Position numbers and translations under genes: made by a program | Part shown: piece by piece, positions 32,568-53,275 of the stretch | Layout of the letters: every line of letters begins with the position of its first letter | How positions within the stretch are numbered: position 1 is the first letter of the stretch | The notes under the pieces: generated by a model | What the model was told of the DNA's origin: nothing | Database searches by the model: none | What the model saw: the letters and a program-made list of their open reading frames with translations, nothing else | Source of the DNA: Candidatus Desulfolinea nitratireducens | GTDB taxonomy: Bacteria > Chloroflexota > Anaerolineae > Anaerolineales > Villigracilaceae | Assembly (NCBI GenBank): GCA_014382535.1 | Contig: JACNJN010000086.1 | Span: 1-64,000, forward strand | DNA: 64,000 nt | Direction: 5' to 3'

Positions 32568-32664
32568 GTGGAGACTGAGTAGTTACCGAGTTTATCACAA
32601 AAAGCCTTGCCGCCTTTTCTCTCTTGTGCTATATTCAGTGCAGTTAAGTAAAAACTTAAATGCC

Positions 32665-33639
32665 ATGAAAAAAGCTACCTCTATCACCTCCTTTGAACAG
32701 ACCAGGCTCCTTGCTGACGCTCGCCGGATGAAGATTTTGCAGTGGCTGATGGATGCACCAGCTACGCTTACACAGCTTGGGCAGAGACTCGGTCAATCGC
32801 CAGCGCGGGTGCGGCATCACATCCAAAAACTGGTGGATGCTGATTTGGTGGAGCAAAGCGAAATCCGCGTGCGTGGCACGGTCACTGAAAAATTTTATCG
32901 TGCCAAAGCGGGTGCCTTCCTCATTCAAAAATTGATCCTGCCTGAGGGGGATCGCCCCGCACTTCTTTTCGCAGGCAGTCATGATCTGGTCATTGAAAAA
33001 ATTGCCGAAAAATTATCCCCTACCCTTGACATTATTTTATATCCTGTTGGTTCACTGGATGGGCTGATCAATCTCCGGCAGGGGCTTTGTCATCTGAGTG
33101 GCGCGCATCTGCTGGATAAGAGCGGCGACTATAACACACCTTACCTCAGCCGAATTTTTCCTCAGCGGAGTTTGCAGGTGGTGACGCTGGCCCATCGTGT
33201 GCAGGGGCTGATCCTAGCGCCATCCAACCCGATGGGAATTCGTAATTTGAGTGACCTTGCGCGGGAAGATATTCGTTTTGCAAATCGCAATGCTGGTTCA
33301 GGGACGCGTATTTGGCTGGATGAAAAATTACGTGAAGAGAATATTCCTGTTGCAGAAATTAATGGGTATGATAATGTCTCTACCACGCATACTGCAGCCG
33401 CACAAAAAGTGCAGCAAGGTCATGCAGATGCCGCTATTGGTTTACAAGCCGCCGCGCTGCAATCCGAACTTGATTTCCTCCCCCTTTTTGAAGAACGCTT
33501 CGATTTAGTTGTTCCCGAAGTCCACGCTAAAACCGCAGCTCCGCTCTTCGAAGTAATTCAAACAAAGGCCTTCCGAGTCACCGCGCAATCTCTCACTGGT
33601 TACAACGTCGCACATAGCGGCGAGCAAATCATCTATTAA
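32665..33639 (+). CDS. HTH (ArsR-like) regulator fused to molybdate/tungstate-type substrate-binding domain
   Basis: ADARRMKILQWLMDAPATLTQLGQRLGQSPARVRHHIQKLVDADLVEQ plus PBP-like domain LAREDIRFANRNAGSGTRIWLDEKL...HTAAAQKVQQGHADAAIGLQAAA. Confidence 0.85.
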   Translation: MKKATSITSFEQTRLLADARRMKILQWLMDAPATLTQLGQRLGQSPARVRHHIQKLVDADLVEQSEIRVRGTVTEKFYRAKAGAFLIQKLILPEGDRPALLFAGSHDLVIEKIAEKLSPTLDIILYPVGSLDGLINLRQGLCHLSGAHLLDKSGDYNTPYLSRIFPQRSLQVVTLAHRVQGLILAPSNPMGIRNLSDLAREDIRFANRNAGSGTRIWLDEKLREENIPVAEINGYDNVSTTHTAAAQKVQQGHADAAIGLQAAALQSELDFLPLFEERFDLVVPEVHAKTAAPLFEVIQTKAFRVTAQSLTGYNVAHSGEQIIY

Positions 33640-33648
33640 AGGAATTAA

Positions 33649-34674
33649 ATGAAGAAAAATTGGAAGTGGCATAAACTACATGATGTGAATTTACCCTTAA
33701 GGGCACTCGTGCGAGCGGAGATTGCGAAGCGAAGCAATCTCGTCCAATTTAGAGAAATCTATATATTGCGAGACTGCTTCGTCGGGCTGTCGCCCTCCTC
33801 GCAGAATCGTCTTTTCATTTATTTTGAGCCACTACCGAAAAATTTTGTCATCACTGCCTTATTGCTCATCTTGTCACTGACCGCCTGTGGATCTACTGTG
33901 CAAGCGAATACCAATCTGATCCTTGCCACGACCACCAGCACGCAGGATTCTGGCCTCCTTGACGAGCTTGTGCCTCTCTTTGAAGAGCTGAGTGGCTACA
34001 CCGTTCAGACCATAGCGGTTGGCACCGGTGCCGCCCTAAAGATGGCAGAAGAAGGTAATGCAGATGTTCTTCTCGTCCACGCACCCTCTGCAGAACTGGT
34101 TTTGATGGATGCGGGCTTTGGCAAAGATCGGATGCTCATCATGCATAATGATTTTGTGATTGTAGGTCCTGCCGATGATCCCGCAGAGATTCGCTCCTTG
34201 ACTTCGGCTGGCGAGGCGTTTAGCAATATATTCAACACTGAAGCCGGATTCGTCTCCCGCGGCGACGACTCGGGGACGCACAAGAAAGAGAGATCCCTGT
34301 GGGCAAGTGCGGATCTGACTCCTGCCTGGGATGGATATATCGAATCCGGACAGGGCATGGGTGCGACCCTCATCATCGCCTCTGAAAAGCAGGCCTACAC
34401 AATGACTGACCGCGCCACCTATCTTGCCATCCGGGATAATCTTGAACTCGAGATTTTGGTTGAAGGGGATGAGATCCTGCTGAATGTTTACCATGTCATG
34501 ACGGTCAATCCTGATCTATGGGAAAACACCAATTATGAAGCTGCACTTGCTTTTGCCGAATTTTTGACCAGCAACGAGACTCAAGCTATCATCAAAGAAT
34601 TTGGGATCGATAAATATGGGCAGCCCCTCTTCTTCCCAGATGCGGATAAAACCGATGCAGAATTAGGTTTATAA
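33649..34674 (+). CDS. tupA: tungstate ABC transporter substrate-binding protein (TupA-like) with repeat-derived N-terminal extension
   Basis: LILATTTSTQDSGLLDELVPLFEELSGYTVQTIAVGTGAALKMAEEGNADVLLVHAPSAE; lipobox LSLTACGS appears about 80 residues after the SD-linked ATG. Confidence 0.88.
   Translation: MKKNWKWHKLHDVNLPLRALVRAEIAKRSNLVQFREIYILRDCFVGLSPSSQNRLFIYFEPLPKNFVITALLLILSLTACGSTVQANTNLILATTTSTQDSGLLDELVPLFEELSGYTVQTIAVGTGAALKMAEEGNADVLLVHAPSAELVLMDAGFGKDRMLIMHNDFVIVGPADDPAEIRSLTSAGEAFSNIFNTEAGFVSRGDDSGTHKKERSLWASADLTPAWDGYIESGQGMGATLIIASEKQAYTMTDRATYLAIRDNLELEILVEGDEILLNVYHVMTVNPDLWENTNYEAALAFAEFLTSNETQAIIKEFGIDKYGQPLFFPDADKTDAELGL
33709..33809. repeat. dispersed about 100-bp repeat in the tupA 5' coding region
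   Basis: gtgcgagcggagattgcgaagcgaagcaatctcg...agactgcttcgtcgggctgtcgccctcctcgcagaatcg; reverse-complement copy at 53126-53212. Confidence 0.85.
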
Positions 34675-34684
34675 TCTTTCATAC

Positions 34685-34712
34685 GCAGGGGCGAAGGGCC
34701 GTCGCCCCTACA
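34685..34712. repeat. dispersed 'aggggcgaagggccgtcgcccct' hairpin
   Basis: caggggcgaagggccgtcgcccctac inverted repeat just before tupB. Confidence 0.7.
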
Positions 34713-34722
34713 GTAAACCAAT

Positions 34723-35373
34723 ATGATATTCGACGCCGAAGTCTTCCAAATCACAATTCTCTCTCTGCAAATCTCCGCCCTTGCGACGGGGATTAGCCTT
34801 TTAATTGGACTGCCACTAGGTACAATGCTCGCACTGGGCAAATTTTGGGGGCGTTCCTTTTTCCTGAGCATTGTCAACACCGGGATGGGATTGCCCCCGG
34901 TCGTCGTCGGTCTCTTTGTGGCGATGATGCTGTGGCGATCGGGCCCTTTTGGTGATTTGCACCTCATCTATACACCCATGGCGATCATTATTGCACAAAC
35001 GGTCATCTCCGCCCCGGTCGTGATAGGGTTGACAGCCGCCGCTCTGCAATCGCTTGATCCGCGTCTACAGCTTCAACTCTATGGCTTGGGAGCATCACGC
35101 TTGCAAATGATCTGGGCGTTGTGGCGGGAGGCGCGTCTGCCGCTTTTGGCCGCATTAATGGCAGGATTTGGCTCGGTCATCTCTGAAGTGGGGGCCTCAA
35201 TGATGGTGGGCGGCAATATTCGTCACCAGACCAGGGTTTTAACGACGGCAATAGTGTTGGAAACAGGCAAAGGCAATTTTGATATCGCCATCGCCCTTGG
35301 CGTGTTGCTGCTTACGATCACATTTTTGGTTAACTGGGCATTAACCTGGATCCAACAAAAAGGGGCAAGATGA
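34723..35373 (+). CDS. tupB: tungstate ABC transporter permease (TupB-like)
   Basis: ATGISLLIGLPLGTMLALGKFWGRSFFLSIVNTGMGLPPVVVGLFVAMMLWRSGPFG...VISEVGASMMVGGNIRHQTRVLTTAIVLET. Confidence 0.9.
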   Translation: MIFDAEVFQITILSLQISALATGISLLIGLPLGTMLALGKFWGRSFFLSIVNTGMGLPPVVVGLFVAMMLWRSGPFGDLHLIYTPMAIIIAQTVISAPVVIGLTAAALQSLDPRLQLQLYGLGASRLQMIWALWREARLPLLAALMAGFGSVISEVGASMMVGGNIRHQTRVLTTAIVLETGKGNFDIAIALGVLLLTITFLVNWALTWIQQKGAR

Positions 35374-36200
35374 CGGGTAAAAAAAGCCTCACCACCAGGA
35401 ACACAAAGAGCACGAAGAAAAGCAAAAAATCTGTGAAAACTGTGGAGAAAAATGCTCTTGTCAAAATACGTGATCTGGAGATTCAGCGCGGCAAAGATAC
35501 TGTCCTGCATGTTCCCGCGTTGGATATTCTCTATGGGGAGGTCTTGGCCGTCGTTGGTCCAAATGGAGCAGGAAAAAGCACCTTGCTTCTGGCGTTGGCC
35601 CGCCTGCTTAAGCCAGAGCGAGGAGAAATATTATTTAGCGACAAGCATTCTGCAGCGTATAAACAAGTCCAGATGGAGTCTGATACGATTTATCGTCGCC
35701 GTATCGCGCTGGTGATGCAGGATCCGCTTTTATTTGATCGATCAGTTTTCGAAAACGTGGCCTCCGGACTGCTTTTTAGGGGGGTGGAAAAAAATGAAAT
35801 CAAGATCAAAGTACCGCTTTGGCTGGACCGATTGGGAGTGGCGCATTTATCAGAGAGACGAGGGGGAAAGCTCTCCGGTGGCGAAGCACAGCGCGTCAGC
35901 CTCGCACGGGCGTTGATCCTGGAACCTGAATTACTCCTGCTCGATGAACCATTTTCTGCACTGGATCCTCCCACACGAGCGCAACTCTTGGATGATTTGG
36001 GGAAATTATTAAATGAAACTTCCACGACAACTGTGTTCGTGACACATGATCTTCCCGAAGCTGCACAACTGGCTACTCGGATGGCAGTGATCATGAAGAA
36101 TCAACTGCGCCAGGTGGGAGAACCGGATGCAATTTTTGCAAATCCGGCCTCTACTGATGTAGCCCGGTTTTTTGGAAATAATAAAAATATCCTCCCTTAA
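35370..36200 (+). CDS. tupC: tungstate ABC transporter ATP-binding protein (TupC-like)
   Basis: VVGPNGAGKSTLLLALARLLKPERGEI; LSGGEAQRVSLARALILEPELLLLDEPFSALD; ATGA overlap with tupB. Confidence 0.9.
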   Translation: MTGKKSLTTRNTKSTKKSKKSVKTVEKNALVKIRDLEIQRGKDTVLHVPALDILYGEVLAVVGPNGAGKSTLLLALARLLKPERGEILFSDKHSAAYKQVQMESDTIYRRRIALVMQDPLLFDRSVFENVASGLLFRGVEKNEIKIKVPLWLDRLGVAHLSERRGGKLSGGEAQRVSLARALILEPELLLLDEPFSALDPPTRAQLLDDLGKLLNETSTTTVFVTHDLPEAAQLATRMAVIMKNQLRQVGEPDAIFANPASTDVARFFGNNKNILP

Positions 36201-51670: not shown

Positions 51671-53092
51671 ATGGAAAATAATTACGATGTTGTCGTCATC
51701 GGCGCAGGGCCGGGCGGCTATGTGGCTGCCATCCGTGCCGCGCAACTGGGGAAGAAAACTGCAATTATTGACAAGCAATGGTTGGGCGGGGTTTGCCTGA
51801 ATGTCGGTTGTATCCCATCAAAGTCGCTGCTGAAAAACGCTGATGTGGCGCATACCTTGCGTGAACGCGGCAAGGAACTGGGTTTCTCTTTTGAGAATTT
51901 AACGCTCGATTTTGGTGTGGCGGTTAAACGCTCACGCCAGGTTTCGAACCGCCTGGTCAAGGGGATCGACTTCCTGATGAAGAAGAATAAGATCGATGTC
52001 CATATGGGCACGGCGAAATTAACTGCAAAAGATACCGTTAAAGTCGTCGCCGCCCTAAAGGATGCTGACGCGAAGGACGGCGCCGAGAGCATTTTAGTTG
52101 CAAAAAATATCATCGTTGCGACGGGGGCAAGCGCGATGGTTCCGCCCGCCTGGAAGGTGGATGGGGAGAAGATCGTCACTTATCTGGAAGCGATCACGCA
52201 GGAGAAATTACCGAAATCGGTCGTCATCATTGGCTCTGGCGCGATCGGCGTGGAATTCGCCACAGTCTGGAATTCCTACGGCGTGGATGTGACCATCGTC
52301 GAAATGCTGCCGCGGATCGTCCCGATGGAAGATGAGGAAGTATCAGCCGAATTGACAAAGGCCTTAAAGAAGCGCAAGATCGAAATGTTGACGGGACATA
52401 AAGTCGAGGCGGTGGAAGCTACCAAGGCAGGAGTCAAGGTCACCGTATCTGCCGGGGATGAGGAAAAGATCATCGAAGCCGAGCAAGCCCTGGTCGCGAT
52501 CGGATTCCGCCCCAACTCCGCAAACATCGGTTTGAAGGAGGTCGGCGTCCAGATCAACGAACACGGGTTCATCGAGATTGACGAACGGATGGCCACCAAT
52601 ATCCCCGGGATTTGGGCGATCGGTGACGTGACCGGCAAGTTGATGCTGGCACATGTCGGCTCAGCAATGGGAATTGTTGCAGCAGAGCATATTGCCGGGC
52701 ATGAAACCGTCGAGTTGAATTATGAGATGATGCCCCGTGCAACCTATTGCCAACCGCAGGTGGCCTCCTTTGGAATTACCGAAGCGCAGGCGATCGAGCG
52801 TGGACACCAGATCAAGGTTTCAAAATTCAACTTTCAGGCAAATGGCAAGGCTCTGGGTTTGGGCGAATATGCTGGTTGGGTAAAATTGATCGTGGACGAA
52901 AAATATGGCGAGATTTTGGGCGCCCATATGATCGGCCCCGAAGTGACCGAGCTATTGCCCGAACTGACCCTGGCACAGATGATGGAGTTGACGCCTGCCG
53001 AGATCGCCCGCAATGTCCACGCGCATCCGACCCTTTCGGAAGTAATAATGGAAGCAGCCCACGTTGCAGAGGGTATGCCCATTCATATGTAA
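51671..53092 (+). CDS. lpdA: dihydrolipoyl dehydrogenase
   Basis: YDVVVIGAGPGGYVAAIRAAQLGKKTAIIDKQWLGGVCLNVGCIPSKSLL; HAHPTLSE C-terminus. Confidence 0.95.
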   Translation: MENNYDVVVIGAGPGGYVAAIRAAQLGKKTAIIDKQWLGGVCLNVGCIPSKSLLKNADVAHTLRERGKELGFSFENLTLDFGVAVKRSRQVSNRLVKGIDFLMKKNKIDVHMGTAKLTAKDTVKVVAALKDADAKDGAESILVAKNIIVATGASAMVPPAWKVDGEKIVTYLEAITQEKLPKSVVIIGSGAIGVEFATVWNSYGVDVTIVEMLPRIVPMEDEEVSAELTKALKKRKIEMLTGHKVEAVEATKAGVKVTVSAGDEEKIIEAEQALVAIGFRPNSANIGLKEVGVQINEHGFIEIDERMATNIPGIWAIGDVTGKLMLAHVGSAMGIVAAEHIAGHETVELNYEMMPRATYCQPQVASFGITEAQAIERGHQIKVSKFNFQANGKALGLGEYAGWVKLIVDEKYGEILGAHMIGPEVTELLPELTLAQMMELTPAEIARNVHAHPTLSEVIMEAAHVAEGMPIHM

Positions 53093-53125
53093 AAAAACGG
53101 GTAGTGGGCGAATCGAAGTGATGAG

Positions 53126-53212
53126 CGATTCTGCGAGGAAGGCTTTTAGCCTGACGAAGCAGTCTAATTCTATCAAAAATGAGATTGCTTCGCTCCGCAA
53201 GCTCCGCTCGCA
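53126..53212 (-). repeat. dispersed repeat, reverse-complement copy of the tupA-embedded element
   Basis: Reverse complement tgcgagcggagcttgcggagcgaagcaatctc...agactgcttcgtcaggctaaaagccttcctcgcagaatcg. Confidence 0.85.
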
Positions 53213-53275
53213 AATTCATTATCACTTATTGTTTTACCACTATCAAAAAACGAAATTGGTCGTAAGAATAATAAG

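Follow-up and report, generated by a model that had tools for sequence, protein, structure and literature searches.

An in-frame IS1-type MITE between the start codon and the signal peptide of a tupA gene in Candidatus Desulfolinea nitratireducens

Introduction

In the 64,000-nucleotide stretch of the Candidatus Desulfolinea nitratireducens genome that we analysed (the window), a gene for a TupA-like lipoprotein carries a block of repeated sequence between its start codon and its signal peptide. The locus raises the question of how such a block came to lie there, and of what it would mean for the translation and export of the protein. A preliminary description, made from the sequence, proposed that a dispersed repeat of about 100 bp had landed in the gene in frame, and that either translation restarts internally at a non-ATG codon or the lipoprotein carries an N-terminal extension.

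The tupA gene and its neighbourhood

The tupA ORF occupies positions 33649 to 34674 of the forward strand and, with the 61-codon insertion included, encodes 341 amino acids. The product matches PBP_like_2 (PF12849) over residues 85-310 in a Pfam profile search (8e-47), and its best NCBIfam model is TupA, at 223 bits (3.8e-66) where the equivalog cut-off of the model is 400 and is not reached. It resembles TupA-type tungstate-binding proteins, and the closest TupA records found in named genomes come from Anaerolineae, Chloroflexota. Within the same operon-like cluster and on the same strand, an upstream gene (32626 to 33639) whose ArsR-type HTH and PBP_like domains make it a probable regulator stops 9 bp 5′ of tupA, and intact tupB (34723-35373) and tupC (35370-36200) genes follow downstream. 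A hairpin-like stretch, caggggcgaagggccgtcgcccctacag, is present at 34684-34713 between tupA and tupB.

A Shine-Dalgarno-like AAAGGAA on the forward strand (33639 to 33645), which overlaps the very end of the regulator ORF, has a calculated anti-SD duplex energy of -5.6 kcal/mol and belongs to the ATG at 33649 (context AAAGGAATTAAATG). As first described, the frame that begins at this ATG crosses the repeat without a stop and reaches the lipoprotein signal, whose hydrophobic core and lipobox (FVITALLLILSLTAC) span 33844 to 33888 on the forward strand. The lipobox, LTAC, is intact, and its Cys codon is at 33886-33888.

A 175-bp element with IS1-type ends

Copies of the repeat were located by searching the window's own assembly (G000; 3.65 Mb in 223 contigs, 97.9% complete), where the tupA insert has a full-length match well above chance (E=7e-76). 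The copy at C20:2438-2612 is 95% identical over 175 bp, and the copy at C71:4549-4757 (L024) holds 34 additional internal bp and is otherwise 96% identical over its first 142 bases and 100% identical in the remainder. The additional bases are in the right half of the C71 copy and include ACTCTAAAGGGCG, a variant form of the CCCTAAAGGG hairpin that is found in the element itself. From the limits common to the tupA, C20 and C71 copies, the repeated unit extends from 33662 to 33836 on the forward strand, so that the block first taken to be about 100 bp long is a part of a 175-bp element.

The element begins and ends with terminal inverted repeats (GGAAGTGGC.../...GCCACTACC), of which the left one, GGAAGTGGCATAAACTACATGATG (33662 to 33685, forward strand), has 17/24 matches to the right one, GGTAGTGGCTCAAAATAAATGAAA (33813 to 33836, reverse strand). 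The outermost bases of both are GGWAGTGGC. A search with the end pattern found both ends in all three copies, and a reversed control pattern gave 0 hits. Exact 8-bp direct repeats, GAAAAATT, flank the tupA element at 33654 to 33661 and 33837 to 33844 (both on the forward strand), and the C20 and C71 copies are each flanked by a perfect 8-bp direct repeat of their own (AAAACTTG and AAAAATAA, respectively). These exact direct repeats are the footprints of transposition. The inside of the element is a palindrome of a type that is widespread in these genomes, and the whole folds strongly on itself from end to end (z=-3.0). There is no room for a transposase ORF within the 175 bp, which hold no recognisable remnant of IS1 coding sequence. 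The element is thus short, lacks a transposase, has terminal inverted repeats and an 8-bp target duplication, and is present in multiple copies, as is characteristic of MITEs. Because of its ends and target duplication we group it with the IS1-type elements, and the data support well the conclusion that an IS1-type MITE inserted into tupA in frame and fairly recently.

Related elements in the genome and in relatives

The preliminary description had matched the repeat nearly base for base to the reverse complement of an intergenic segment at 53126-53212. The inverted repeat is real (E=1.8e-10), but the identity is 74% with gaps. The segment is part of a divergent 145-bp cousin element on the reverse strand (53100 to 53244), which lies directly after an ORF ending at about position 53092 and has an exact target duplication of its own (AAAAAACG on the forward strand). 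The two copies differ by gaps, and an ungapped-seed repeat search within the window missed the pair. Exact 8-bp duplications thus flank all four copies in this genome with resolved ends (tupA, C20, C71 and the 53-kb cousin). Among MITEs with such ends in relatives, six of the seven examined have an exact 8-bp duplication, and the seventh matches at 7/8 positions.

Very small elements whose ends are of this kind occur in other genera, one of 80 bp (L143, G014:C7) and one of 130 bp (L139, G065:C17), with target duplications of 7/8 and 8/8, respectively, and the GGTAATGG-type end is present at least seven times in G014. A further species of the genus has a GGTAGTGGTCAAAATTGACTGA-ended repeat (L128, G006:C17:3140) about 1.6 kb upstream of its own tupA gene. 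We rejected the idea that the short core GCGAAGCGAAGCAATCTC is by itself the mobile unit, as many copies share only this core and have other or unrecognised ends. Many short repeats in the genus contain the core, or its counterpart GAGACTGCTTCGTC, without having GGTAGTGG ends (L010, L012, L053, L056, L060 and others; G000, G004, G007), and the core seems to be common to different small elements.

A search for the end pattern in 100 relatives revealed larger elements, 770-780 bp in length, that have ends of this type. These encode a DDE ORF matching DDE_Tnp_IS1 (PF03400; 2.8e-23 and 4.5e-23) and a zinc-ribbon/HTH ORF (PF03811; 2.3e-12 in G009), and the InsA and InsB ORFs occupy two frames whose junction is a run of A, as is typical of IS1. 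Of the full elements, G009 C56 has CGAGTTTT as an exact 8-bp duplication at its flanks, and two others are without one. Compared with both ends of an IS1 from a genome of the same family (G009 C72), the ends of the tupA element agree at 16-18 of 23 positions (17-18/23 for the right end), against a background mean of about 7/23 for window 23-mers that start with GG. The agreement with the IS1 of G072 is 15-16/23 at the left end and only 8-12/23 at the right end.

No intact IS1 with these ends was found in the window's own assembly, and a PF03400 search of it gave no match, although absence from a draft that is 97.9% complete is weak evidence. The assembly does hold a decayed IS1-like element with GGGAGTGGCTAA ends (L176, G000:C28:33155-33953), whose transposase is split in two frames and whose C-terminal transposase part has no Pfam match. 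We do not favour this resident as the mobiliser, given that its ends match those of the tupA element at only 10-13/23 positions. Because of this poor match and the lack of a PF03400 hit, an active IS1 partner may have been lost from the genome or may lie in unassembled sequence.

The ancestral start of tupA

Orthologues of TupA offer the comparison with an empty site that had been suggested as a check. When the element and one copy of the target duplication are removed in silico, the sequence becomes ATGAAGAAAAATTTTGTCATC... and the protein begins MKKNFVITALLLILSLTACGS. Five genomes of the same genus carry TupA orthologues that are 77-80% identical and have the signal peptide right at the ATG (MKKTLITLLLLSLAISAC, MKKTLILTLLLSLALSAC, MNKKLIFAFLILNFAFSAC, MKKTALLPLLILALLTAC, MKKITLLPLLILALITAC). 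These proteins start like the restored one, and therefore the ancestral signal peptide began at the ATG at 33649 and the element entered after the fourth codon (MKKN|FVITALLLILSLTACGS). Together with the target duplication and the terminal inverted repeats, the orthologues bear out the proposed insertion of a repeat between the start codon and the signal peptide.

An error of assembly, or a chimaeric join, is a very improbable source of this arrangement, for although the draft consists of 223 contigs and assemblies tend to break down at repeats, the edges of the insert are the exact ends of the element, the target duplication is perfect, the copy has private substitutions and the locus lies inside a 69-kb contig.

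Reading frame and the missing stop

The element and one copy of the target duplication add 183 bp (175+8), or 61 codons, and the frame of tupA is kept because this is a multiple of three. The tupA copy differs from both sister copies at four positions (33664, 33684, 33698 and 33721), which in the tupA frame correspond to a change of Gln to Lys, a synonymous change in an Asp codon, stop to Leu, and Leu to Ile. The third of these falls in codon 17 (33697 to 33699, forward strand). Placed at the tupA site, the sister sequences would read CCC TAA AGG, with the only stop that the element contains in this frame, whereas CCC TTA AGG in the tupA copy leaves the frame open from end to end. Other related copies with this hairpin (two C220 copies and G004 copies) likewise have TAA or TGA in this register, with one divergent G007 copy as the exception.

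The chance that four random substitutions would open the frame is 0.03-0.05, a figure from a comparison that involves four substitutions and two close sister copies and was made after the difference had been noticed. We consider it suggestive of a present or past advantage in translating through the element. A variant copy that carried TTA from the outset, and was tolerated for that reason, would give the same picture.

The site of translation initiation

Four in-frame start codons precede the hydrophobic region, and among them the ATG at 33649 has the strongest Shine-Dalgarno pairing (-5.6 kcal/mol, compared with -1.5 for GTG 33685, -4.9 for GTG 33709 and -2.9 for TTG 33766). Downstream of the element, no in-frame ATG, GTG or TTG occurs before the hydrophobic region, and the next candidate, TTG 33862, is already within the core itself, with the lipobox Cys following 8 residues later. 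Therefore, a TupA protein with a normal hydrophobic signal must carry residues encoded by the element. This disfavours the outcome in which the repeat is 5′ UTR only, since any restart upstream of the hydrophobic region falls inside the element. The insertion has not strengthened the predicted structure around the ATG at 33649 relative to the empty site, and we favour this codon because it is the ancestral start, has its Shine-Dalgarno sequence in place and is burdened by no added structure.

Of the two alternatives first put forward, the extension is favoured by the absence, from the tupA copy alone, of the element's only in-frame stop. Internal restart fares less well, and we regard it as unlikely, but it deserves consideration. 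The insertion would have taken place as described, and translation would resume inside the element at the best alternative start, the GTG at 33709 to 33711 (forward strand), giving a product about 41 residues longer than the ancestral one. The AAGGG that precedes this codon (AAGGG-CACTC-GTG) yields a duplex energy close to that of the original start, ribosomes arriving from the ATG at 33649 may feed it, and the ancestral TAA at 33697-33699 would have allowed them to stop and to restart 9 nt further on. However, the original ATG retains its own Shine-Dalgarno sequence and has gained no structure around it, and the loss of the TAA brings no advantage if restart sufficed.

Under the favoured reading from the ATG at 33649, the 61-residue extension would have 12 K/R and 5 D/E residues. 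The element would contribute peptides such as SNLVQFR, EIYILR and DCFVGLSPSSQNR, with LHDVNLPLR within residues 1-20. In a signal peptide, such a net-positive segment fits the cytoplasmic side of the membrane. The resulting n-region of 65 residues is unusual in its length and may lower export.

This same unusual n-region could be a sign that the insertion impairs export or translation and that tupA is becoming a pseudogene, with the TTA codon arising by chance. We judge such decay to be somewhat less likely even than internal restart. The insertion is present in only one genome, and the probability that random substitutions would open the frame is not negligible. However, the rest of the ORF is without stop or frameshift, TupB and TupC are intact, and the four changes specific to the tupA copy comprise a synonymous one, a Leu to Ile, a Gln to Lys and the stop to Leu.

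Discussion

Taken together, we think it probable that an IS1-type MITE entered tupA with the frame kept, that translation reads through it from the original ATG and that the extension is cleaved at the lipobox. The 175-bp element would have been mobilised in trans by an IS1-family transposase, present now or formerly, and would have duplicated 8 bp on insertion after codon 4. The in-frame TAA at codon 17 would have become TTA by mutation after insertion, or a variant copy would have been tolerated. Ribosomes starting at the original ATG would then produce a TupA precursor with a net-positive extension before an intact lipoprotein signal. Most likely, this extended n-region of the pre-lipoprotein would stay on the cytoplasmic side and be cleaved off at the lipobox Cys as part of the signal peptide. 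Because the LTAC lipobox is intact, the mature tungstate-binding lipoprotein should be the same as the ancestral one.

A further step would be that the element now serves as a selected, translated extension of the signal peptide, that selection removed the stop, and that the n-region modulates the synthesis or targeting of TupA. We consider this doubtful. If true, it would provide an example of an extended signal peptide made by a transposon, and the interest of the locus lies mainly in such biological consequences, namely the putative extended signal peptide and a possible loss of the stop by selection. The insertion constitutes a clean natural experiment, in that the target duplication is exact, orthologues show the empty site, sister copies still bear the stop and the length preserves the frame. 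It suggests that in-frame transposon insertions in bacteria might find a tolerable niche immediately ahead of a cleavable signal peptide, where the added residues could be removed. It also connects short palindromic repeats that form a family in Anaerolineae with IS1-type transposition. A literature search of partial coverage found no paper describing these repeats, and an exact-letter search with part of the core returned only matches that appear unrelated from their titles.

The tupA element belongs to a known kind, that of IS1-type MITEs, and in-frame insertions are already known from the Rickettsia palindromic elements. It resembles IS1-family elements and the MITEs derived from them in its ends, which begin with GGTAGTGG, in its 8-bp target duplication and in having full-length relatives with InsA (Zn ribbon) and InsB (PF03400), but it differs in carrying an internal palindrome instead of a transposase.

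Rickettsia palindromic elements are short (about 150 bp), palindromic mobile repeats that are located in frame within protein genes and give rise to translated insertions (reviewed in PMC10969869). The likeness to the tupA element is in the way of working only, and we claim no membership. Rickettsia palindromic elements sit in many genes and have been described with a conserved peptide (PMC10969869), whereas the tupA insertion is the one in-frame case among the copies examined, and its open frame needed the absence of the stop. Moreover, the tupA insert precedes a signal peptide and so may be absent from the mature protein. In Coxiella, QMITEs extend or enter ORFs, as in the 33-aa C-terminal extension of EnhC (PMC5896051). 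These are likewise bacterial MITEs that add residues to proteins, although they represent another element family, and the tupA extension is N-terminal, before a signal peptide, whereas that of the QMITE is C-terminal.
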